Of a stretch of 64,000 bases of DNA, positions 3,477 to 42,972 are shown one piece after another (positions within the stretch are counted from its first letter, which is position 1; each line of letters starts with the position of its first letter). A program made the translations under genes and the position numbers. Source of the DNA: Rhodospirillales bacterium (GTDB lineage: Bacteria > Pseudomonadota > Alphaproteobacteria > Rhodospirillales > JASLQF01); NCBI GenBank assembly GCA_030744625.1, contig JASLQF010000065.1:62001-126000 (forward strand), given 5' to 3'. The notes under the pieces were generated by a model. That model was given only the letters and a program-made list of their open reading frames with translations, was not told the origin of the DNA and searched no databases.

Positions 3477-3998
3477 CTAGGCGGGTTCGTCCAGTGCATC
3501 CATCAAGGTCCGCAAGGCGCTCTGGCTGACCTTGCCCGCCACCACCGCCGGCGTGGACACCTCCAAGGCGTCCTTGGAGCACATCTCGACACAGGCCGGT
3601 CCCGCGTCACGCCCCGCGCACAGATCGCAGATGATCACCCGCTTCGTTTCCGGGTCGAGGACGATGGCGCCGAAGGGACAGGCGTCGATGCACCACCCGC
3701 AGCCGTCGCACTTGTCGTTGTCGACGTCGATCAGGCTGTTGTCCGGGTTCACCGCCAGCGCACCGTCGCGCGGGCACACCTTCACGCAGACCGGATCCTC
3801 GCACCCTCGGCAGGCTATCGAGATCATCAGGATCGGCTCCTGACGCATGACCCTGATCCGCGAGCGCAGGATATTGGCGCTGTTGTCCTTCACCGAGGCG
3901 CAGGCGAACTCACACAACTGGCATCCGACGCAGAGGTCGGGATCGCACACCACGAGCCGGGCGTGGGGCGAGATCGGAACATGCGGCGAGGGGCTCAT
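3477..3998 (-). CDS. 4Fe-4S polyferredoxin, AOR electron-transfer subunit (copy 1)
   Basis: This 173-residue protein has four [4Fe-4S] motifs: CVGCQLCEFAC, CRGCEDPVCVKVC, CDGCGWCIDACP and CDLC-x8-CVEMC. In the last motif Ser replaces the usual Pro after the final Cys. It is a paralogue of the protein at 656-1210. Its ATG overlaps the AOR stop codon (ATGA), so it should be made together with AOR and is the most likely direct electron acceptor. AorA of Aromatoleum AOR is the closest known functional analogue. Why the operon has two such proteins is unknown; they may wire AOR and the flavoprotein in series. Confidence 0.9.
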   Translation of the reverse strand: MSPSPHVPISPHARLVVCDPDLCVGCQLCEFACASVKDNSANILRSRIRVMRQEPILMISIACRGCEDPVCVKVCPRDGALAVNPDNSLIDVDNDKCDGCGWCIDACPFGAIVLDPETKRVIICDLCAGRDAGPACVEMCSKDALEVSTPAVVAGKVSQSALRTLMDALDEPA

Positions 3999-5818
3999 GC
4001 CGTCTGGCCCGACAGCCCGAGGCGGTCCTGGGTCGCCGGCGCCACTTCTCCCTCGGCGGTCCAGCCGCGGGCTTCGTAGTAGTCCGAGACCAGCAGTTCG
4101 AGTTCCGCCGGTGGCAGCGAGACGCCTTTCCCGGGCCCGTCCGGGATGGGCTCTTGCATTAGTCGCGGCGGCAGGCTGTCAAGCTCGCGCGTCCACCCTT
4201 CGCGGACGTTGAACATCTTCTTGAGGTTGGAAATTCGCTCGCCCGCCTCAACGAGTTCCTGGGCGCTCACATCCCAGCCGGTCGCCTGGGAGTAGAGCCG
4301 GGCACCCTCCTCGTGCAGGTCCGTGAAGCATCCTCGCATGAACTTGCAGATGCCGAGCGAATCGAGGAGCACGGCGACATCCTCCTGGGCCATGGCTATC
4401 TGGCCGCGGCCTTTTTCCGCCTTGAAACGGTCGACCTTGCCCTTGAGATCCGGCTCGTAGGCCAGCGAACGGTTGTGGCATCCCCCGCGCGTGCCGACGG
4501 CGAGGCCGAGCGCGTACGTCTTCATGCCGCGCGGGTCGTAGCCCGGCAGCTCCAGCCCCTTTGAGTGTATCGCGAAGTAGTCGCTGTCCTTGCCCACCTC
4601 CTGGGCGGCCAGCCTCGATCCTTCCGCCAGGATCTCGCCGAGCCCCTCGCGCCGCGCGATCTTGAGGATCATCGCCACCATGGCATCGGCGTTGCCGAAG
4701 CGCAGGTCGACGCCGTCGTCGGGAGGAAGCAGTCCGCGCTCCGCCGCTTCCATCGCCCAGGCCAGGGTTACGCCCGTGCTGAGCGTGTCCATGCCGAGCG
4801 TGTCGCACAGCTCCGCGGCACGAATGACGGCGGGCAGGTCGTCGACGTCGCAACACGGACCGAGCGCGAACAGGGTCTCGTAGTCCACCGAGACCCGTGC
4901 CCCCGCATGAGACCCCTCGGCGACCTTCATGACCTGCTCGCAGGCGATGGGGCACGCCGCGCAGGCCACGGTCTTCTCATGGTGACGGCGGTGAAGGGTC
5001 TCGCCGGAGATGCCTTCGGCCTCGTCGAGCGCCGTCCTTTGAAAATTGCGCACCGGGAGGACCCCGAGGCGATTCAGGGTGAGGACGTTGCCGACCGTCC
5101 CCGGCTCGCGGTACTTGCCGGTCGCCGGACCCTGTGCTTGCGTGATCAAGTCGCAGGAGGTCTGGTAGACGGCGTCGTTGTCGGCGACCGCCACGGCGCC
5201 CGATCCGCGCACGGCGATCGCCTTGAGGTTTTTCGATCCCATGACCGCCCCCGGCCCGGTACGTCCGGCCTGTCGGCCCCGGTCGTTGCCGATGCACGCG
5301 AAACGCACGAGATTCTCGCCGGCCGTGCCGATGGCGGAGACCCGCACCGCCTCGTCCCCGAGTTCCTCGCGGATCGCTTCTTCGGTGGCGAAGCACTCCT
5401 GGCCCCACAGCGCCCGGGCATCACGGAAATACACCGTGTGATCGTCTATGAACACGTACACCGGCGTGTCGGCGCGCCCCAGTATCACCACCGCGTCGTA
5501 ACCGGCGCGCTTCAGGGTGTGGGAGAAGAAGCTCCCGGCCATGGCATCGCCCAGCATGCCCGTGAGGGGGGATTTGGTGGCGACGGAGTGCTTCGCCGCG
5601 GCGGGCACGATGGTGCCGGCAAACACGCCGCAAGCGAACACGATGACGTTGCCCGGCTCCAGGGGGTCCACCCCCGGCGCCAGGTGGTCGTAGAGCAGCC
5701 GCACGGCGAGCCCGGACCCTCCGAGGTAGGCGCGGAGCATGGACTGGGAAAGTTCAATTTCTTCCGATTTGCGTTCCGTGAGGTCAATGATCAGAGCTTT
5801 TCCGGTGTAACCGTTCAT
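3995..5818 (-). CDS. aor: Aldehyde:ferredoxin oxidoreductase, tungsten/molybdopterin family
   Basis: This 607-residue protein has the length and domain order of the AOR family. The N-terminal cofactor domain begins MNGYTGKALIIDLTERK and contains SPLTGMLGDAMAGSFF and AGRTGPGAVMGSKNLKAIAVRG. The cluster motif is CAACPIACEQ near residue 285, with a distal Cys in SLGICKFMRGC, which gives the expected C-x2-C-x3-C...C set for one [4Fe-4S] next to the bis-tungstopterin (occasionally Mo) cofactor. The family oxidises aldehydes to acids or reduces acids to aldehydes using low-potential electrons; BamB-type members reduce benzoyl-CoA. It is the second gene of a minus-strand operon, four bases after a MoaD-like gene and overlapping a polyferredoxin gene. 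The substrate is not evident; aromatic or aliphatic aldehydes are plausible given the acyl-CoA genes nearby. Confidence 0.95.
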   Translation of the reverse strand: MNGYTGKALIIDLTERKSEEIELSQSMLRAYLGGSGLAVRLLYDHLAPGVDPLEPGNVIVFACGVFAGTIVPAAAKHSVATKSPLTGMLGDAMAGSFFSHTLKRAGYDAVVILGRADTPVYVFIDDHTVYFRDARALWGQECFATEEAIREELGDEAVRVSAIGTAGENLVRFACIGNDRGRQAGRTGPGAVMGSKNLKAIAVRGSGAVAVADNDAVYQTSCDLITQAQGPATGKYREPGTVGNVLTLNRLGVLPVRNFQRTALDEAEGISGETLHRRHHEKTVACAACPIACEQVMKVAEGSHAGARVSVDYETLFALGPCCDVDDLPAVIRAAELCDTLGMDTLSTGVTLAWAMEAAERGLLPPDDGVDLRFGNADAMVAMILKIARREGLGEILAEGSRLAAQEVGKDSDYFAIHSKGLELPGYDPRGMKTYALGLAVGTRGGCHNRSLAYEPDLKGKVDRFKAEKGRGQIAMAQEDVAVLLDSLGICKFMRGCFTDLHEEGARLYSQATGWDVSAQELVEAGERISNLKKMFNVREGWTRELDSLPPRLMQEPIPDGPGKGVSLPPAELELLVSDYYEARGWTAEGEVAPATQDRLGLSGQTA

Positions 5819-15751: not shown

Positions 15752-16384
15752 CTACCAACGGCTCCCTTCGGGCACCAGACCGCGTAGCAGGAAGTCGGTC
15801 TGCTCGTCGATGAAACGGTCGATGGTGACGAAGCGCTTCAGGGTCCAGCTCTTGAGCGCCCACATGTGGGCGAGGAAGCCGGCGCTGTGGGCGGCGAGGC
15901 GGGCGTCGACCTGGCGAAAGGCGCCGGTGCGCACGCCCTCGAGGATGATCTTTTCGAACACGTCGGTGACCGCGGCATCGGACCGCAGCACCACCTGCTG
16001 GCGGTCCTTGGGCAGCACGTCGAGTTCCCGGTAGAGCAGCTTCACGTGCTGGCGGTGGCGGTGGACGATCTGGCAATAGCGGCTGAAGGCGTCCTTGAAC
16101 GCCTCCACCGGGTCGTCGCCGCCGGGCGCCACCTCGGCGAGCCCCCGGGCCTTCTCCTCCATCAGGTGCTGGGCGACGAGGAAGAGGATGTCCTCCTTCG
16201 ACGACACGTACATGTAGAGGCTGGCCAGGTTGAACGGACAGGCCTCGGCGATGTCGCGGATCGAGGTCTTGTGGAAGCCCTGTTCGAGGAACATGTGGGT
16301 CGCCACGTCGACGATCTCGGCGCGCCGCTGGGCGACGAGGTCGGGGTCCTTGATCGTGGTCCGGATATTCTTCTGCTGCGCCAT
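15752..16384 (-). CDS. TetR/AcrR-family transcriptional regulator
   Basis: The ATG at 16384 (MAQQKNIRTT) gives 210 residues; the track start at 16483 adds an unlikely Arg-rich leader. The N-terminal helix-turn-helix is at about residues 20-65 (AEIVDVATHMFLEQGFHKTSIRDIAEACPFNLASLYMYV). A helical ligand-binding domain follows, with DAFSRYCQIVHRHRQHVKLLYREL resembling FadR/KstR2-type regulators of acyl-CoA degradation. It lies upstream of the acyl-CoA ligase in the same direction and divergent from the transhydroxylase-like genes, so either may be its target. Confidence 0.88.
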   Translation of the reverse strand: MAQQKNIRTTIKDPDLVAQRRAEIVDVATHMFLEQGFHKTSIRDIAEACPFNLASLYMYVSSKEDILFLVAQHLMEEKARGLAEVAPGGDDPVEAFKDAFSRYCQIVHRHRQHVKLLYRELDVLPKDRQQVVLRSDAAVTDVFEKIILEGVRTGAFRQVDARLAAHSAGFLAHMWALKSWTLKRFVTIDRFIDEQTDFLLRGLVPEGSRW

Positions 16385-16701
16385 GGTTTCCGTTTCCGCG
16401 TTGGCGGCCCGACGAAGGGGGCCTGTGTCGCGGCGAACTGTAACAGGATTCCACCGTCGCGCCAACGCATCGGAACGGTCCAAATCACCTACGGAAAAAG
16501 CGCGCCCATGTGCGAGGCCCCGCCGCCGCCTCGGGCGCCATCCGGCGCGGCCCCGGCAACGACACGGGCGCCTGGGTGGTGATGTTCGGCTACGGCCTCG
16601 ACCATGCGGTCGATACGGGCTCTTCCCGCGCGCCCTTTTCGATTAAGATGACGACGCCGGTCACCGGGTTGCCGGCCACGAACAAGCTGGGGATGTGATC
16701 C
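16385..16701. other. Divergent intergenic region, possible gene remnant
   Basis: About 317 bases separate the TetR gene from the molybdoenzyme large subunit. The stretch stays GC-rich and codon-like, and short frames cross it on both strands, but none has a ribosome-binding site or a recognisable domain. It may hold a decayed gene fragment as well as the two promoters. I see no clear operator palindrome. Confidence 0.4.
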
Positions 16702-19281
16702 ATGTCCGACCATCAAGAGCACAGGGTGGTTTATGTTTCTCACCCGGCGAGCGGCCTGGCGAGGTCTAATTTCCCCCTGGAATGTCACGTCGAGGGCTCC
16801 AGGATCGTCAGGTCGCTTCCCTTCTATATTCCCGAAGACGTCAGGCTCTACGAGATCAAGACGTCACGGGGCGTCTTCACGCGACCCAGAAAAGAAGTGC
16901 AGATGCCTTTGGCATTTGCCGCGAAGCGGAGGGTTCACTCGGCGACGCGCGTAAAATATCCGCTGTTGCGGGATGACTGGAGCCCCGACAACCCGAATGC
17001 GGAGCAGCGCGGCAAGAGCGGCTATTCCCGGATCAGCTGGGAGCAGGCCCTGGATGTCATTGTCGGCCAGTTGAATCGAATTCATGAGAAATATGGGTCG
17101 ATGGAACCCGTTCTCGTTCAAGCCGACGGGCACGGCCATAGCGGATACATGCAGTCCCTACATTTCTGGGGGCACTATCTCTTTGACATGATCCGCGAAC
17201 ACCTTGGATGGGGATGGTGGACCCAGCAGGTGCGGAACCCCGACAGTTGGGAAGGTTACTACTGGGGCGCCAAGCACGTCTGGGGCTTCGATGACACCCT
17301 GGGAGAGCCCTACCAGGATGCCGTCTGGGACGACGTGCTCGAGCATGCGGAAATGGTGATTTTCTCGGGTAACGATCCAGAGGCGACGGGCTTTGGCATG
17401 TCGGGATCGATCGCCCTGGAGATGCCCAAATGGCTGAAGCGAGCCGGCATCAAGGTCGTCGCCATCTCGCCGGACCTCAACCACGCGGCGGCGGTTCACG
17501 CCGACAAGTGGATCCCCATCAAGCCGAATTCGGATGGGGCGCTCTATCTCGCGGTGGCGCATACATGGATCGTCGAGGGAAGCTATGACAAGGAATACGT
17601 AAGAACGCACACGGTCGGCTTCGAGGAGTTCAGGCGCCATGCGATGGGCGAAGACGGCGGCGTGGCGAAGACGCCGGCGTGGGCGGAGAAGATAACGGGC
17701 GTGCCGGCACACACGATTCGGGCCCTGGCCAGGGAGTGGGCGGCCAAGAAGACCACGCTCTCGGTCTACTTCGGGGGCCCGAAGATCAGAGGGACCCTAT
17801 CGCATGTGGCCGCAAGGCTGGAGGCCTACGTGTTGGCGATGCAGGGCATTGGCCGCCCGGGAAGACAGTTCCTGAGGACAGGGGCGCCTTCCTTCTACAA
17901 GAAATCGTTGGCACAGGTGCCTCGTTATCCCGAGGTCGATCATCACGGGATCGCCCTCAATCCGATGATCGAGTATGCGATCGGGCATGGGCCGAAGTCG
18001 CCGGTGTTCATCCCCAGGACCCTTGCCGCCGAAGCCATTCAATGCCCGTCCATCGAATGGAGAGGCACCACCGCCTCTTTGGCGAAGACGGAGGACCAAT
18101 TCAACCACTACCGCTTTCCCCCCAACGACGGTCATCCCGGCATTCGTATGGTGTGGAACGAGAATGGCAGTCAGCCGGGAAGCTGGGGCCACGGCTGGAA
18201 CTGGCTGGAGGCGCTGGCAAATCCACGAATTGAATTCGTCGTCGGGGTGCATCCCTGGCTCGAGAACGACATCCCGTTCTCGGATCTGATATTGCCCGCG
18301 CAGACCAACTACGAGCATGAAGATCTGGTGACGGTGCAACGGAGCGATGTCCTGGCCATGTTCTACCAGGACCAGGCCATCGAGCCGGTCGGCGAGTCGA
18401 AGAGTGACTACGAGATACACCGCATGATCGGCCAGCGACTGGGATTGGACGACGTGTTTCCGCCCGCCGAGCAATGGTTGAAAGCGGCCTACGGGGGAAC
18501 GCTGGCTTCGACGAAGCATGGAACCACTTGGGAAGAGTTCAAGGAGAAGAAGCACTTCGTCTACGATTGCCCGACATGGGACGAATGGGTGGAAATCAAG
18601 AAGGAGCACGGTTTTGGGCCGAATGAAGGCGGGCTCCACTGGTTCTGGTCGGCGGGTGACGGACTGGAAACGCCTTCGGGAAAGATCGAATTCGTTTCGT
18701 CCCGGATTGCCGAGCTTGATCCCGATAATACGGAACGGCCGCCGCTGGCAAGGTGGGTGCCGCATGGCGAACTGCGGGACTCGCCCAAGGGGCGGGAGTA
18801 TCCCCTATCGGTGATGTCGAATCACCCAAGATTCAGGTTCCACGTCCAAGGCGACGATGTCGACTGGATCAGAGAGATAGCCAAGGTCCGCGGCCCGGAC
18901 GGTTACATGTACGAACCGTGTTGGATCCATCCGACCGACTCCGACGTCAGAGGCATCGCGGACGGCGATATCATCATGGTGCACAACGAACGTGGTGCCT
19001 TGCTTGTCGGCGCCGTGGTGACTGAAAGAATTATTCCCGGTGCCTTGTCCATCGACCATGGCGCCAAGATCGACCTTGCGATGCTCAACAACACGCTCAT
19101 CGACCGGGGTGGCTGTATCAACCTGATCGCACCGACGCCGCAGGAAAAATATGGAGCCGGAGCGGAGATCGCCATCCCGGAAATGAACGTCAGCGGCTTC
19201 CTGGCACAGGCCGCCAAGATAGACGTATCAGACATCGTGGCGAGTACGGGCTTAGGCCACGGAGCCACGGTGCCGGGTTGA
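16702..19281 (+). CDS. Molybdopterin oxidoreductase large subunit, pyrogallol transhydroxylase-like
   Basis: This 859-residue protein belongs to the DMSO reductase superfamily: bis-MGD binding is shown by SWEQALDVIVGQLNRIHEKYG, the middle domain, and a C-terminal MopB_CT region (EPCWIHPTDSDVRGIADGDIIMVHNERG). It has no N-terminal cysteine cluster and no Tat signal. A NPDSWEGYYWGA block near residue 180 gives Asp-Ser-Trp at about 181-183, and HGHSGY lies near 144. In the Pelobacter transhydroxylase structure a Ser (about 175) ligates Mo beside Asp174 and His144, so the spacing fits well. The length (859 versus about 875) also fits. The partner subunit seven bases downstream has the C-terminal beta domain typical of that enzyme. 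Function as a polyhydroxybenzene hydroxyltransferase is inferred; other arrangements of the superfamily remain possible. Confidence 0.85.
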   Translation: MSDHQEHRVVYVSHPASGLARSNFPLECHVEGSRIVRSLPFYIPEDVRLYEIKTSRGVFTRPRKEVQMPLAFAAKRRVHSATRVKYPLLRDDWSPDNPNAEQRGKSGYSRISWEQALDVIVGQLNRIHEKYGSMEPVLVQADGHGHSGYMQSLHFWGHYLFDMIREHLGWGWWTQQVRNPDSWEGYYWGAKHVWGFDDTLGEPYQDAVWDDVLEHAEMVIFSGNDPEATGFGMSGSIALEMPKWLKRAGIKVVAISPDLNHAAAVHADKWIPIKPNSDGALYLAVAHTWIVEGSYDKEYVRTHTVGFEEFRRHAMGEDGGVAKTPAWAEKITGVPAHTIRALAREWAAKKTTLSVYFGGPKIRGTLSHVAARLEAYVLAMQGIGRPGRQFLRTGAPSFYKKSLAQVPRYPEVDHHGIALNPMIEYAIGHGPKSPVFIPRTLAAEAIQCPSIEWRGTTASLAKTEDQFNHYRFPPNDGHPGIRMVWNENGSQPGSWGHGWNWLEALANPRIEFVVGVHPWLENDIPFSDLILPAQTNYEHEDLVTVQRSDVLAMFYQDQAIEPVGESKSDYEIHRMIGQRLGLDDVFPPAEQWLKAAYGGTLASTKHGTTWEEFKEKKHFVYDCPTWDEWVEIKKEHGFGPNEGGLHWFWSAGDGLETPSGKIEFVSSRIAELDPDNTERPPLARWVPHGELRDSPKGREYPLSVMSNHPRFRFHVQGDDVDWIREIAKVRGPDGYMYEPCWIHPTDSDVRGIADGDIIMVHNERGALLVGAVVTERIIPGALSIDHGAKIDLAMLNNTLIDRGGCINLIAPTPQEKYGAGAEIAIPEMNVSGFLAQAAKIDVSDIVASTGLGHGATVPG

Positions 19282-19288
19282 TCGAGCA

Positions 19289-20098
19289 ATGGACAAGAAG
19301 ACATTCCTGATCGATGTCGACAAGTGCTCCGGCTGCAGGCTGTGCATGATCGTCTGCAAGGACGAGCACGTTGGAAGCGGCTATTCACCCTGGACCAAGC
19401 CTCAGCCCGACACCGGGCAGTTCTGGATCGATGTCCATTCGCTGGAAAGGGGGCGGATCCCCAGAGTTCGGATGTCGTATCTGCCTGTTCTTTGCCAGCA
19501 CTGTGAAAATGCACCCTGCGTCAAGGCGTGCGCCGAGGCAGCCATCAAGACCAGGAGCGATGGTCTGGTATGGATAGACCCCGCGCCATGCACGGGCTGC
19601 GGGCTCTGTCAAACGGCGTGCCCTTACGACGTTATCTATATGAACGGTGATCTGAAGATTGCCCAGAAGTGCACGGGCTGCGCACACCGCGTAGACGAAG
19701 GGGCCTTGCCGAGATGTGCCGAGGTCTGTCCGCACGACGTCATCGTCTTCGGTGACGTTGAAAACGGCAAGACCCTGAAAGTCTATCACCCTGAATACCA
19801 AACCGGGCCGAGGGTCTATTGGAAGGGCCTGCCAAAGCCGTGGATCGCGGGTACGGTGATAGACGCGCTCAGCGACGAGGTGATTTCGGGCGTGGCGATC
19901 ACTTCGGTGGATCTATTCGAGGACGCATCGGTCACCGTCCTTTCGGACGAGTTCGGTGACTTCTGGATAAGGGGCATGGAGAAAGACCGAAAGTACCGGG
20001 TCGAGATCAGAAAGGAAGGCTACCAGGACTTCCTTTCAATCGTCACCACGGATGGCGATCAGGACGTGGGGACCGTCGGTCTGAAAAGGACACCGTGA
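19289..20098 (+). CDS. 4Fe-4S subunit with C-terminal CnaB-like domain, transhydroxylase small subunit-like
   Basis: This 269-residue protein has four cysteine blocks: CSGCRLCMIVC, CQHCENAPCVKAC, CTGCGLCQTACP and CTGC-x11-CAEVCP. They are followed from about residue 190 by a beta-rich domain (WIAGTVIDALSDEVISGVAI...YRVEIRKEGYQDF) of the carboxypeptidase-regulatory/CnaB type. A ferredoxin subunit with this extra barrel is the hallmark of pyrogallol-phloroglucinol transhydroxylase beta (about 274 residues). The sequence shows Cys for four clusters; I recall three reported for the Pelobacter enzyme, so cluster content may differ. It overlaps no gene and follows the large subunit by seven bases. 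Confidence 0.85.
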   Translation: MDKKTFLIDVDKCSGCRLCMIVCKDEHVGSGYSPWTKPQPDTGQFWIDVHSLERGRIPRVRMSYLPVLCQHCENAPCVKACAEAAIKTRSDGLVWIDPAPCTGCGLCQTACPYDVIYMNGDLKIAQKCTGCAHRVDEGALPRCAEVCPHDVIVFGDVENGKTLKVYHPEYQTGPRVYWKGLPKPWIAGTVIDALSDEVISGVAITSVDLFEDASVTVLSDEFGDFWIRGMEKDRKYRVEIRKEGYQDFLSIVTTDGDQDVGTVGLKRTP

Positions 20099-27604: not shown

Positions 27605-28243
27605 TCAGTCCCCGACCAAGGTCCGCGCCAGGGCGACCGCGCCGGGGGCATCGAGGCCGTACCCGTGGGCACCGATTTTATCGGCGTAATTCTGGTTTAT
27701 GGGTGGACCGCCGACCATCACCTTGATGTTCAGGTTGCGGTTCTCATTGGCCTCGCTAATCGCCGCCACGGCCTTTTCCATCTCCGGCATGGAGGTGGTG
27801 AGCAGGCTCGACAAGGCGATGATGTCGGCCTCGTTCTCCTGGGCGGTGGTGATGAAGGTCTCGGCATCCACGTCGACGCCCAGGTCGACGACACGGAAAC
27901 CCCCACCCTCGAGCATCAACCCCACCAGGTTCTTGCCGATGTCGTGAAGGTCGCCCCTGACGGTTCCGAGGACGACCGTGCCCGCCGGTTTGGTCCCGGT
28001 GCCGACGAGATGGGGCCGGAGGACATCGAGCCCGGCCTGCACGGCTTCCGCCGCCATCAGCATTTCCGGGACGAAAAGCGTGCCGCCGCTGAACTGCTTG
28101 CCGATCATGTCCATGGCGGCGATCATTCCCTCGTCGAGGATGGTCTTGACATCGGTTCCCGCGTCAAGCTCCTGATTTATGAGTTCGACGACCCTCGTGT
28201 CGTCGTACTCCATGACCGCATCATAAATTTCCTGGATTGCCAT
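27605..28243 (-). CDS. Methyltransferase corrinoid protein (MtaC/MtbC/OdmA-like)
   Basis: The ATG at 28243 (MAIQEIYDAVMEYDD) follows GAAGGGA and gives 212 residues; the longer track ORF is not needed. Residues 1-85 form the helical cap domain and about 90-212 the cobalamin-binding domain. The lower-ligand motif RGDLHDIGKNLV (DxHxxG) is intact, with ALSSLLTTSM and VMVGGPPIN completing the site. It is the first gene of an eight-gene minus-strand operon and should accept methyl from the UroD-type enzyme and pass it to tetrahydrofolate through the pterin-binding methyltransferase. Confidence 0.95.
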   Translation of the reverse strand: MAIQEIYDAVMEYDDTRVVELINQELDAGTDVKTILDEGMIAAMDMIGKQFSGGTLFVPEMLMAAEAVQAGLDVLRPHLVGTGTKPAGTVVLGTVRGDLHDIGKNLVGLMLEGGGFRVVDLGVDVDAETFITTAQENEADIIALSSLLTTSMPEMEKAVAAISEANENRNLNIKVMVGGPPINQNYADKIGAHGYGLDAPGAVALARTLVGD

Positions 28244-28327
28244 TTCATTCCCTTCTTTCGGCCCTGCTGGCGGGGCCACGGGCACCGAGAGCGCGCGCAG
28301 TATACCCTTTCCAAGAACCCCCCGTTT

Positions 28328-28341
28328 TTGACATAAGTCAA
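28328..28341. promoter_or_regulatory. FNR/CRP-family-like inverted repeat between corrinoid operon and BisC-like gene
   Basis: TTGACATAAGTCAA is a perfect inverted repeat (TTGAC-N4-GTCAA), matching the FNR consensus TTGAT-N4-ATCAA at eight of ten positions. It lies about 82-85 bases from each of two divergent start codons and could control both. The surrounding run of T and A residues suggests an open, promoter-like segment. Confidence 0.6.
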
Positions 28342-28422
28342 AAAGAATTTGTTGCATCACCCGCACCAATCGCCGTTGGGCTTCAACCGCCACAATGCGT
28401 AAAACCGAAACGGAGCGTCGTC

Positions 28423-30723
28423 ATGAGCAAAGGGGAGTCGCAATTCAGCACACTCTCGCATTGGGGAGCCTACACGGTCACCGTCCGCGGCGGACAAGTG
28501 GTCGGCGTTGCACCATTCGTCAAGGACCCCGACCCTTCACCGATTATCGAGGCCTTGCCCAGCGCCCTGCACGACAAGAGCCGCATTCTCCATCCGATGG
28601 TCCGCAAGGGGTTCCTGGAAGATCGGCAAGCGAGCGATCGTACGAAGCGGGGCGCCGACCCGTTTGTCGCGGTTTCCTGGGATGAGGCGTTGGATCTGGT
28701 CGCCGAGGAGTTGGATCGCGTGCAATCCGCCCATGGCAACGAAGCGATTTACGGCAGCTCCGGTTGGTCGAGCGCCGGTCAATTTCACCAAGCGGAATCC
28801 CAGCTCAAGCGGTTCCTGAACGCATTGGGCGGCTTCGTCGACCAGGTCACCAACTTCAGCTTCGGCGCCGCGTCCGTCATCGTGCCGCGCGTCACCGGGT
28901 CGATGGAGCCCGTGCTGACGCCGACCATGTGGCCGGTGATCGTCGAAAACACAAGGTTGATGGTCTTGTTTGGGGGCTTGCCGCAAAAGAACAGCCAGGT
29001 GACCAAGGCCGGGCTGGGCGCCCACAGCATGATGGGGTGGTTGCGCAAGGCAAGGGCCGCCGGTGTCGAGTTCGTGTCGATCAGCCCGAGACGGGACGAC
29101 ATGCCTGATTTTCTCGAGGCGGAATGGCTGCCCGCCCGCCCCAATACCGACGTCGCCTTGATGCTGGGCCTCGCCCATACGTTGGTCGCCGAAGACCTGC
29201 ACGATAGCCAATTCCTGGATCGCTACTGCGTCGGTTTCGAGCGCTTCCTCCCCTACCTGACCGGCCAGGTGGACGGCGTCCCGAAGGACGCCGAATGGGC
29301 GGCGGCAATCACCGAGATCGACGCCGAGACCATCCGCGAACTGGCGCGGCGCATGGCGGCGACACGGTGCATGGTGGCGGCGAGCTGGTCTGTTCAGCGC
29401 TCGGACCATGGCGAGCAGCCCTTCTGGATGGCCGTTGCCCTGGCCGCCATGCTGGGCCAGATCGGACTTCCCGGTGGCGGTTTCGGCTTCGGCTATGGCG
29501 CCATGAACAGCATCGGCGACGCGGTCTCGAGGATACCGGTTCCGTCATTACCCAGGGGCCGGAATTCCGTGCAAGCGTTCATCCCCGTTGCCCGCGTCGC
29601 CGACATGCTGCTGAACCCGGGCGGGCAGATCGACTTCAATGGGGAGAAAATCACTTATCCCGACATTCGGCTGATCTATTGGTGTGGCGGAAACCCGTTC
29701 CATAAACAGCAGGACATCAACCGCCTGCTGCTGGCCTGGCAAAAGCCCGAGACCATCATCATCCACGAACCGTGGTGGACACCGGCGGCGCGCCGCGCCG
29801 ACATCGTTCTCCCCTGTACGACGACCCTCGAACGAAACGATATCGGGGCATCGGATAGAGATCGGTTCTTCATGGCGATGCCCAAGGCGGTCGAGCCGGT
29901 TGGCGAGTCGCGGAGCGACTACGACATATTCTCCGGGTTGTCGAAGCGCCTGGGTTGCCACGAGCACTACACCGAGGGCCGTGACGAAATGGGCTGGCTG
30001 CGCCACATGTACGACGTCGCCCGGCAAGGTGCGTCGCGCGCCGGCCATGAACTGCCGTCATTCGACGACTTCTGGGAAAAAGGCCATCTTGAATTTCCCG
30101 CGAGCAAGGACCCCAAGGTATTGTTCGACGCTTTTCGCGGCGATCCGGGCGGCAGTCCCCTGAAGACTCCGTCGGGGAAAATTGAAATCTATTCGCAAAC
30201 GATCGCCGGGTTTGAATACGATGATTGCCCGGGCCACCCGATGTGGATGGAGCCCATCGAATGGCTGGGTTCGCAAAAAGCCGTAGCTTTCCCGCTGCAT
30301 CTGATTTCGAACGCGCCGGCGCACCGGTTGCACAGCCAGCTCGATTGCGGCGCGGTCAGCCGCGCCGCCAAGGTCGGCGGGCGCGAGCCGGTGTGGATGC
30401 ATCCGCGCGATGCCGGGGCACGGGCCATTGGCGACGGCGATATCGTTCGGGTTTTCAACGGGCGCGGCGCTTGTCTGGCGGGGGCCGTCGTCACCGACTC
30501 GATTCGCCCCGGCGTGATCCAGCTGGCGACCGGTGCCTGGTATGACCCGACGGAGCCGGGCACCATCGGTTCGCTGGATAAACATGGCAATCCCAACGTA
30601 CTGACGCTGGACAAGGGCGCATCGAAGCTAACGCAAACGTGTGCCGCCCTGTCGGCGCTCGTCGAAATCGAGCTCTACGAAGGCGAACCGCCAGCGGTCT
30701 CGGCGTTCGAACCGCCATCGTGA
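28423..30723 (+). CDS. Molybdopterin oxidoreductase, BisC/TorA/DorA family (cytoplasmic)
   Basis: The ATG at 28423 (MSKGESQFSTLSHWGAY) follows GGAG and gives 766 residues; the track ORF's leader is not needed. THWGAY-type N-terminus, SWDEALDLVAEELDRV and the C-terminal MopB_CT domain mark the DMSO/TMAO/biotin sulfoxide reductase branch, which lacks the N-terminal Fe-S motif. The Mo ligand should be Ser146 in TNFSFGAASVIVP, equivalent to Ser in DorA's DYSTGAA. There is no Tat signal, as in BisC, so it acts in the cytoplasm. No membrane or cytochrome partner gene is near. It probably reduces an S- or N-oxide or catalyses an unusual hydroxylation; it is divergent from the corrinoid operon and may share its promoter region. 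Confidence 0.9.
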   Translation: MSKGESQFSTLSHWGAYTVTVRGGQVVGVAPFVKDPDPSPIIEALPSALHDKSRILHPMVRKGFLEDRQASDRTKRGADPFVAVSWDEALDLVAEELDRVQSAHGNEAIYGSSGWSSAGQFHQAESQLKRFLNALGGFVDQVTNFSFGAASVIVPRVTGSMEPVLTPTMWPVIVENTRLMVLFGGLPQKNSQVTKAGLGAHSMMGWLRKARAAGVEFVSISPRRDDMPDFLEAEWLPARPNTDVALMLGLAHTLVAEDLHDSQFLDRYCVGFERFLPYLTGQVDGVPKDAEWAAAITEIDAETIRELARRMAATRCMVAASWSVQRSDHGEQPFWMAVALAAMLGQIGLPGGGFGFGYGAMNSIGDAVSRIPVPSLPRGRNSVQAFIPVARVADMLLNPGGQIDFNGEKITYPDIRLIYWCGGNPFHKQQDINRLLLAWQKPETIIIHEPWWTPAARRADIVLPCTTTLERNDIGASDRDRFFMAMPKAVEPVGESRSDYDIFSGLSKRLGCHEHYTEGRDEMGWLRHMYDVARQGASRAGHELPSFDDFWEKGHLEFPASKDPKVLFDAFRGDPGGSPLKTPSGKIEIYSQTIAGFEYDDCPGHPMWMEPIEWLGSQKAVAFPLHLISNAPAHRLHSQLDCGAVSRAAKVGGREPVWMHPRDAGARAIGDGDIVRVFNGRGACLAGAVVTDSIRPGVIQLATGAWYDPTEPGTIGSLDKHGNPNVLTLDKGASKLTQTCAALSALVEIELYEGEPPAVSAFEPPS

Positions 30724-41907: not shown

Positions 41908-42972
41908 ATGTTCTTGAAAAACTATTGGTATGTCGGGGCGTATGGCCACGAGGTGGGGCGGACGCTGCTTGCGCGCACCATAGTGAGTGAAAAGATCGTT
42001 TTCTACCGCACCGAGGACGGCACGCCCGTGGCCATGGAGAACCGCTGCTGTCACCGGCGGGCGCCGCTTTCCCGCGGCCAGCTTGTCGGTGACGACGTGG
42101 AGTGCGGCTACCATGGGCTGACCTTCGACCCGTCCGGCGCGTGCGTGCGCGTGCCGGGACAGAAAAAGATCCCCGAGAGGGCGCGGGTGAGGACCTATCC
42201 CGTGGTCGAGCGCTGGCGGTTCATTTGGATCTGGATGGGGGATCCGGCGCTGGCTGATCCGTCACTGATCCCCGATCATCTTTACCGCTACAACGAGGAC
42301 CCGGATTGGACCGCGGTCACCGGCTATCTCCATCTCAAGGCTCACTATCAGCTGCTCGTAGACAACCTGATGGATCTAAGCCACGAGACCTATCTGCACA
42401 TGAAGACCATCGGTACGGTGCACGTGGCGGAGACGCCGCTCACCAAGGTGGAGCGCGACGACGACGGCGTCACCGTCACGCGCTGGATGCTGGATCGTCC
42501 GCCACCCCCCATCTACGACAAGAGCGGCGGCTTCAGCGAGCGCGGGGAGACCGTCGACCGCTGGCAGATCATCCGCTTCGAGCCTCCGTCGCATTGCTGT
42601 TTGGACGTCGGCGTGGCGACGGCGGGCAGCGGCGCGCCCGAGGGAGACCGCAGCAAGGGCATTTCCATGCGCTCGTTGAATGCGTTGACCCCGGAGACCG
42701 AGGGATCGACCCATTATTTCTGGACGTTTCCCAGAGACTACAAGCTGGACGACGGGGATACCTCGGACCTCCACGCCAAGGGGTTCCACAACACCTTTAT
42801 GGAAGACGTGGTGATGCTCGAGGCCCAGCAGGAAATCATCGAATTGGACCGGGGTACGCCCACCGTCGACATCAACGCCGACGGATCGACGATCCCCGTA
42901 CGCCGCCTGATCCAGAGCCTTCTCGACGCGGAAGGTGCGGCGAAGGACCCATCGCGGGCAGCGGCGGAATAG
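41908..42972 (+). CDS. Rieske aromatic ring-hydroxylating/O-demethylating oxygenase (VanA-like)
   Basis: This 354-residue protein has the Rieske [2Fe-2S] motif RCCHRRAPLSRGQLV...CGYHG (C-x-H and C-x2-H) near residue 47. The mononuclear iron site is in LLVDNLMDLSHETYLH near residue 155. Size and layout fit vanillate O-demethylase oxygenase VanA and related carnitine or dicamba O-demethylase families. No VanB-type reductase is adjacent, so electrons must come from elsewhere. It could be the aerobic counterpart of the corrinoid system in the same window; the substrate is not determinable. Confidence 0.92.
   Translation: MFLKNYWYVGAYGHEVGRTLLARTIVSEKIVFYRTEDGTPVAMENRCCHRRAPLSRGQLVGDDVECGYHGLTFDPSGACVRVPGQKKIPERARVRTYPVVERWRFIWIWMGDPALADPSLIPDHLYRYNEDPDWTAVTGYLHLKAHYQLLVDNLMDLSHETYLHMKTIGTVHVAETPLTKVERDDDGVTVTRWMLDRPPPPIYDKSGGFSERGETVDRWQIIRFEPPSHCCLDVGVATAGSGAPEGDRSKGISMRSLNALTPETEGSTHYFWTFPRDYKLDDGDTSDLHAKGFHNTFMEDVVMLEAQQEIIELDRGTPTVDINADGSTIPVRRLIQSLLDAEGAAKDPSRAAAE

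Follow-up and report, generated by a model that had tools for sequence, protein, structure and literature searches.

A transhydroxylase-like molybdoenzyme gene pair in a Rhodospirillales bacterium belongs to a clade separate from pyrogallol transhydroxylase

The gene pair and its closest homologues

The stretch analysed here (the window) comprises 64,000 nucleotides of a Rhodospirillales bacterium (assembly GCA_030744625.1, contig JASLQF010000065.1, positions 62,001 to 126,000), in which two adjacent genes at 16702-20098 encode the subunits of a predicted molybdenum (Mo) or tungsten (W) enzyme with a bis(pyranopterin guanine dinucleotide) (bis-PGD) cofactor. A first-pass annotation, made from the sequence alone, had described the pair as similar to the pyrogallol transhydroxylase of Pelobacter and had linked it to a neighbouring O-demethylase-like operon. 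The two open reading frames (ORFs) and the sites within them that matter for the assignment are listed below.

16702..19281, + strand: large subunit (ThL-like), Mo/W-bisPGD enzyme, 859 amino acids (aa); assigned from ORF call, domain, homology and model
17131..17133, + strand: codon of His144, aligned with Pelobacter His144 and invariant in 72 of 72 compared sequences
17242..17250, + strand: codons of Asp181-Ser182-Trp183 (DSW), aligned with Pelobacter Asp174-Ser175-Trp176; Ser182 is the predicted metal ligand
19289..20098, + strand: small subunit (ThS-like), ferredoxin-type electron-transfer subunit, 269 aa; assigned from ORF, homology and domains
19325..19729, + strand: Fe-S portion of the small subunit, with four groups of cysteines (16 in all, residues 13-147), sufficient for four [4Fe-4S] clusters
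19844..20062, + strand: CnaB-like (CarboxypepD_reg) C-terminal domain of the small subunit, Pfam match

The small-subunit ATG lies 7 bases past the large-subunit stop. A Pfam scan found Molybdopterin and Molydop_binding domains in the large subunit and no Fe-S domain or motif, as had been noted from the sequence; a Tat signal was not evident. The small subunit contains Fer4 domains followed by a CarboxypepD_reg domain (residues 186-258), which agrees with the CnaB-like C-terminal domain described previously. The view of this barrel as a rare mark of the transhydroxylase has to be given up, however, because close and distant relatives also carry the C-terminal domain. Among the curated NCBIfam models listed, none scored over its cut-off for either subunit.

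Searched against the PDB, the large subunit matched pyrogallol transhydroxylase from Pelobacter acidigallici first (4v4c_A, 389 bits; next match 212 bits), with about 34% identity across 774 aligned positions. The first match of the small subunit was the partner chain (4v4c_B, 129 bits; next match 103 bits), and the alignment extends through the C-terminal domain. When the large subunit was modelled with AlphaFold (mean pLDDT 76.7, pTM 0.83), the model retrieved the Pelobacter transhydroxylase at rank 1 in Foldseek (E 7.6e-65, TM 0.80). The original observation of a likeness to this enzyme was thus sound, as the transhydroxylase tops the PDB matches for both frames as well as the fold search.

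Active-site residues, phylogeny and cluster cysteines

Close orthologues of the large subunit (70-84% identical) were found on 22 contigs from Alpha-, Beta- and Gammaproteobacteria, one Rokubacterium and one Thermoplasmata metagenome-assembled genome (MAG). Such identity over these lineages suggests that the group they form with the window protein (the window clade) is under strong purifying selection. One of the orthologous loci (L027) is from Rhodospirillaceae bacterium SI036_bin45, a member of the host's order. A search of plasmids for relatives returned only ones that are 31-33% identical.

Residue conservation was assessed in a MAFFT alignment of 73 large subunits, in which the Pelobacter sequence had been rebuilt from the PDB-search alignment. 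His144, Asp181, Ser182 and Trp183 align with His144, Asp174, Ser175 and Trp176 of the Pelobacter large subunit (PgtL, also AthL), and none of the four varies among the 23 window-clade sequences or among 11 sequences, about 40% identical, of a sister group described below. The sequence alignments back the earlier proposal that Asp-Ser-Trp at 181-183 and His144 correspond to the Mo-site residues. Two details of that proposal need correction: the spacing does not equal that of Pelobacter (37 residues from His144 to the Asp in the window protein versus 30), and His146, also named as a site residue, is His or Gln depending on the orthologue.

The substrate side of the site differs. The Pelobacter motif SHHxWGNVGY is replaced by DGHGxSGY in the window clade, with His145 changed to Gly, Trp147 to Ser and Tyr152 to Ser, and the segments PGYAEGG (with Tyr404) and SGY (with Tyr560) are missing. 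The alignment check on tyrosines that the first-pass annotation had proposed thus went against a transhydroxylase-type pocket: the positions of Tyr152, Tyr404 and Tyr560 are not kept in any of the 23 window-clade sequences. Among 38 sequences of the type of PgtL or of the resorcinol hydroxylase large subunit (RhL), by comparison, Tyr404 is invariant, Tyr152 is present in 36 and Tyr560 in 33. A pairwise HMMER alignment instead places a Tyr of the window protein on Tyr404; among the orthologues this position is Tyr, Phe or His. In the Pelobacter enzyme, Tyr404 and the surrounding Tyr152, Arg153, Cys557 and Tyr560 are what we take to be the substrate pocket, and Tyr404, His144 and Asp174 reportedly have catalytic roles.

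The trees separate the pair from PgtL. The window clade forms a group on a long stem, and its sister is a set of sequences, about 37-42% identical, from Deltaproteobacteria, an actinomycete and a Clostridiales MAG. The opposite clade comprises PgtL, a close actinomycete relative of PgtL (80% identity) and N-terminally extended proteins of about 1000 residues. The split between the window clade plus its sister group and the PgtL/RhL-like clade received SH-aLRT values of 98 and 99 in a quick 70-row tree, and support of 100/99 in a careful 34-row tree that included three RhL-like sequences. A tree in which the window clade was made to unite with the PgtL group was 195 log units worse and was rejected (p-AU 1.8e-6). 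Of the proposed transhydroxylase membership, what stands is a place in the Ser-ligated Mo branch around PgtL, given PgtL as the closest homologue, the D-S-W block, the Fe-S-free large subunit and the ferredoxin-type small subunit with its CnaB tail; a place within PgtL proper does not, the clade being separate and the pocket tyrosines absent.

Members of both sides can share a genome. An actinomycete MAG carries, within 9 kb (L089:435-9162), a PgtL 80% identical to that of Pelobacter with its small subunit and a sister-group member with its own small subunit; the same genome holds fourteen matches of this enzyme type. In the host's order, PgtL/RhL-type relatives (L057-L065, L076-L094, L097-L103, L147-L157) occur in 29 of 199 sampled genomes, the window genome excluded; they are mostly about 1000 residues long with an N-terminal extension, and there are often several per genome.

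The small subunits follow the same division. Readable window-clade small subunits retain the 16 cluster cysteines, including a CTGCGLC...C group (CxxCxxC...C). The Pelobacter small subunit (PgtS) has 12, enough for three clusters, with 'KAKGKKELL...C' in place of CTGCGLC...C, and those PgtL/RhL-type small subunits of the set that could be read have lost this group in the same way, with small variations. An exception on the other side is the sister-group small subunit of L034, which also lacks it. The 16-cysteine set is a marker of the clade and suggests an intact electron path.

Compared with PgtLS/AthLS, then, the pair shares the overall fold, the Ser ligand within D-S-W-E-G, His144, and the make-up of both subunits, and it departs in clade, pocket motifs and number of cysteine sets (four versus three). 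Resorcinol hydroxylase (RhLS) of Azoarcus anaerobius likewise belongs to the Ser-ligated branch, with a large and a CnaB-type small subunit and an aromatic context. As its stand-in we used L149, which was assigned by context and not by a named RhL sequence: it adjoins frames resembling the E1 and E3 components of 2-oxoacid dehydrogenases, presumably the setting of resorcinol hydroxylase and benzoquinone dehydrogenase in Azoarcus. Unlike the window protein, RhL-like proteins have an N-terminal extension of about 150 aa and retain both motifs, SHHxWGN and PGYAEGG; they fall with PgtL in the tree, and their partners contain fewer cluster cysteines. The marks of RhLS (the extension, both motifs and bqdLMS-like neighbours) are present in L149 and absent from the window protein and its neighbourhood.

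Gene context and the phloroglucinol route

A corrinoid methyltransferase (O-demethylase-like) operon does lie beside the pair, on the opposite strand and convergent with it at 20098/20149, as had been reported. The functional link drawn between the two is not supported. Within the flanks available for the 22 orthologous loci, no gene of the operon and its surroundings (corrinoid methyltransferases, RACo, MTHFR, CoA-transferases, thiolase, ALDH) proved to be conserved, and the sole matches to window neighbours there are remote and belong to common families. Methyltransferase, CoA-transferase and thiolase genes were accordingly rejected as conserved neighbours, and the adjacency to the operon looks incidental.

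Other families recur at the orthologous loci: FAD_binding_3 monooxygenases (six loci), HpaB monooxygenases (five), UbiD decarboxylases (four), a pair of FAD_binding_2 and D-2-hydroxyacid dehydrogenase genes near the subunit genes (four), a cupin (four) and a TRZ/ATZ-type amidohydrolase (three). The cupin is a small conserved protein (about 160 aa, no NCBIfam match) that stands beside the pair in L010, L013, L014 and L027, three times together with the amidohydrolase. The 3.2 Mb host assembly has eight genes of the UbiD family, and the product of one shares 68% identity with the UbiD on contig L029. It also has four heme-copper-oxidase family matches, because of which the host can probably use oxygen.

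The first-pass annotation had also placed the pair in a route from methoxylated aromatics to a phloroglucinol-type isomer, and for this genome such a route is not supported. The known phloroglucinol route comprises PGR, DPGC (cyclase family), TfD and the triacetate-cleaving enzyme TAL (beta-keto acid cleavage family) (PMC10470551). TAL (NCBIfam NF053538) has no match in the host assembly, which is 88% complete; the single PF04199 cyclase in the assembly belongs to a family that is not diagnostic for DPGC. NF053538 is found in 9 of the 22 orthologue genomes and in 61 of 198 background genomes of the host's order. As these rates are similar, co-occurrence with TAL was dropped as evidence.

Upstream of the large-subunit gene, and separated from it by 218 bp, is a divergent regulatory gene:

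15752..16483, - strand: TetR-type regulator, assigned from sequence character and weak similarity to the HTH protein RefZ

It is a possible regulator of the gene pair; an operator site sought in the intergenic region yielded short imperfect palindromes only, none convincing. Elsewhere in the window, a BisC-type S/N-oxide reductase is encoded at 28237-30723 on the + strand (TIGR00509, 1054 bits, over the cut-off). Its TTG start is probably too far upstream, since the ORF overlaps that of a corrinoid protein. The window that holds the corrinoid methyltransferase operon also encodes a Rieske oxygenase with a VanA_C domain, of the oxygen-dependent vanillate O-demethylase type (41908-42972, + strand). 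A protein of the tungsten-type aldehyde:ferredoxin oxidoreductase family (3995-5818, - strand) and a FAD_binding_2/fumarate-reductase-like flavoprotein (1207-2979, - strand) were found as well.

Candidate functions of the pair

We judge it an evenly balanced question whether the pair is a cytoplasmic, two-subunit Mo (or W) hydroxylase or hydroxyl-transferase of hydroxylated aromatics from a Ser-ligated sister clade of the known enzymes. Its gene context points this way: a FAD_binding_3, HpaB, class D flavin or Rieske oxygenase, or a UbiD, lies within 6 kb at 12 of 21 orthologue loci compared with 3 of 40 random regions from the same genomes (twice the sequence of the tested loci), a count that is biased in that the reference proteins were drawn from the tested loci and that L015, L017, L022 and L024 form one related group. 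Besides this bias, several observations weigh against the assignment. The window has no homologue of those oxygenases or UbiD at the threshold used; the neighbours vary by lineage, so that no single pathway is implied; and confidence in the structure model is low in parts of the active-site loops. The small subunit of the RhL-like L149 should belong to a redox enzyme and yet contains fewer cysteines than PgtS, for which reason the fourth Fe-S cluster was rejected as proof of net redox chemistry and kept only as a marker of the clade. Finally, no biochemistry on the window clade was found in the literature searched. Fold, metal site and subunit plan are known already; what sets the pair apart is its distinct clade, for which that literature offers no characterised member.

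A true transhydroxylase, making a phloroglucinol-type isomer from polyhydroxybenzenes freed by O-demethylation, appears quite improbable to us. The top PDB match and the conserved Ser, Asp and His would fit it, as would a betaproteobacterial 3,5-dioxohexanoate:acetyl-CoA acetone transferase (L026:8810-9841, - strand; 542 bits, cut-off 430) that is divergent from the adjoining orthologue of the pair and would catalyse a step after phloroglucinol ring opening (PMC10470551); but the separate clade, the rejected union with PgtL, the tyrosine positions that are not kept, the absence of TAL from the host assembly and its near-background frequency in orthologue genomes, and demethylase genes that are not conserved near orthologues all stand against it. 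The demethylase genes also make it highly improbable that the pair serves the adjacent operon by hydroxylating or rearranging the phenol left by O-demethylation, an idea which draws on the convergent adjacency in this genome and conflicts with the opposite strands and with the orthologous loci. A reductive enzyme that acts as a dehydroxylase on catechol- or pyrogallol-type compounds, or otherwise removes oxygen from their rings, with electrons supplied via the four-cluster small subunit, is unlikely but deserves more credit. The full set of 16 cysteines resembles that of the reductase subunits NrfC, PhsB and DmsB, and the many sister-group copies in one actinomycete MAG are reminiscent of gut catechol dehydroxylases. 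However, those of Eggerthella and Gordonibacter, also enzymes with a bis(molybdopterin guanine dinucleotide) cofactor acting on hydroxylated rings, are reported to group with acetylene hydratase and apart from transhydroxylase (PMC7028382). The neighbours of the window clade, moreover, are oxidative catabolic enzymes.

We also considered a relative of the S- or N-oxide reductases with no aromatic role, which seems very unlikely. The dimethyl sulfoxide (DMSO), trimethylamine N-oxide (TMAO) and biotin-sulfoxide reductases DorA, TorA and BisC have the same Ser-ligated bis-PGD large subunit without Fe-S (PMC10100899). DMSO/TMAO reductases come next best by sequence and fold, but PgtL is clearly closer to the window protein (389 versus 212 bits) and shares with it the D-S-W-E-G block and the CnaB-type small subunit. 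We know of no CnaB-tailed ferredoxin partner for DorA, TorA or BisC. Orthologue contexts, in addition, are aromatic-catabolic, and the genome has the separate BisC-type enzyme described above.

For the hydroxylase or hydroxyl-transferase that we favour, the analysis shows the family, the clade, which residues are retained or lost, the cysteine sets and the gene context; metal, chemistry, substrate, direction and electron partner are what we infer in the following scheme. In the large subunit, a hydroxylated aromatic ring would bind at the metal, which Ser182 would ligate; Asp181 and His144 would serve as acid/base residues, and an oxygen would be added to the ring or taken from it independently of O2. 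Electrons would pass between the enzyme and a soluble partner through the small subunit, whose cysteines suffice for four [4Fe-4S] clusters, and the scheme would allow either direction, oxidative hydroxylation or reductive dehydroxylation. The differing pocket argues for a substrate other than pyrogallol and tetrahydroxybenzene, and the presence of UbiD, HpaB and FAD monooxygenases nearby argues for an intermediate in the breakdown of aromatic or heteroaromatic acids, probably one of an acid-decarboxylation or ring-oxidation pathway. A more specific version is put forward tentatively, as a possibility we would not bet on: an O2-independent Mo (or W) hydroxylase or hydroxyl-transferase with a new aromatic or heteroaromatic substrate, operating inside otherwise oxygen-dependent catabolic islands of environmental Proteobacteria, on a line of divergence of its own, apart from pyrogallol transhydroxylase and resorcinol hydroxylase.

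Metagenome studies have given related genes the label pyrogallol hydroxytransferase, and annotation of this kind has served to infer pyrogallol degradation from genomes (PMC3971608, PMC4959651). Given the clade described here, caution is needed where such pairs are automatically labelled pyrogallol transhydroxylase. To our knowledge, only pyrogallol transhydroxylase, enzymes of the resorcinol hydroxylase type and close kin such as dihydroxybenzoate hydroxylase have been characterised in this branch, all of them from anaerobic metabolism. A strongly conserved sister clade that stands beside flavin monooxygenases and UbiD, in hosts that include oxidase-bearing ones like the present bacterium, would bring new substrates into Mo-dependent ring chemistry and might take that chemistry into aerobic settings.

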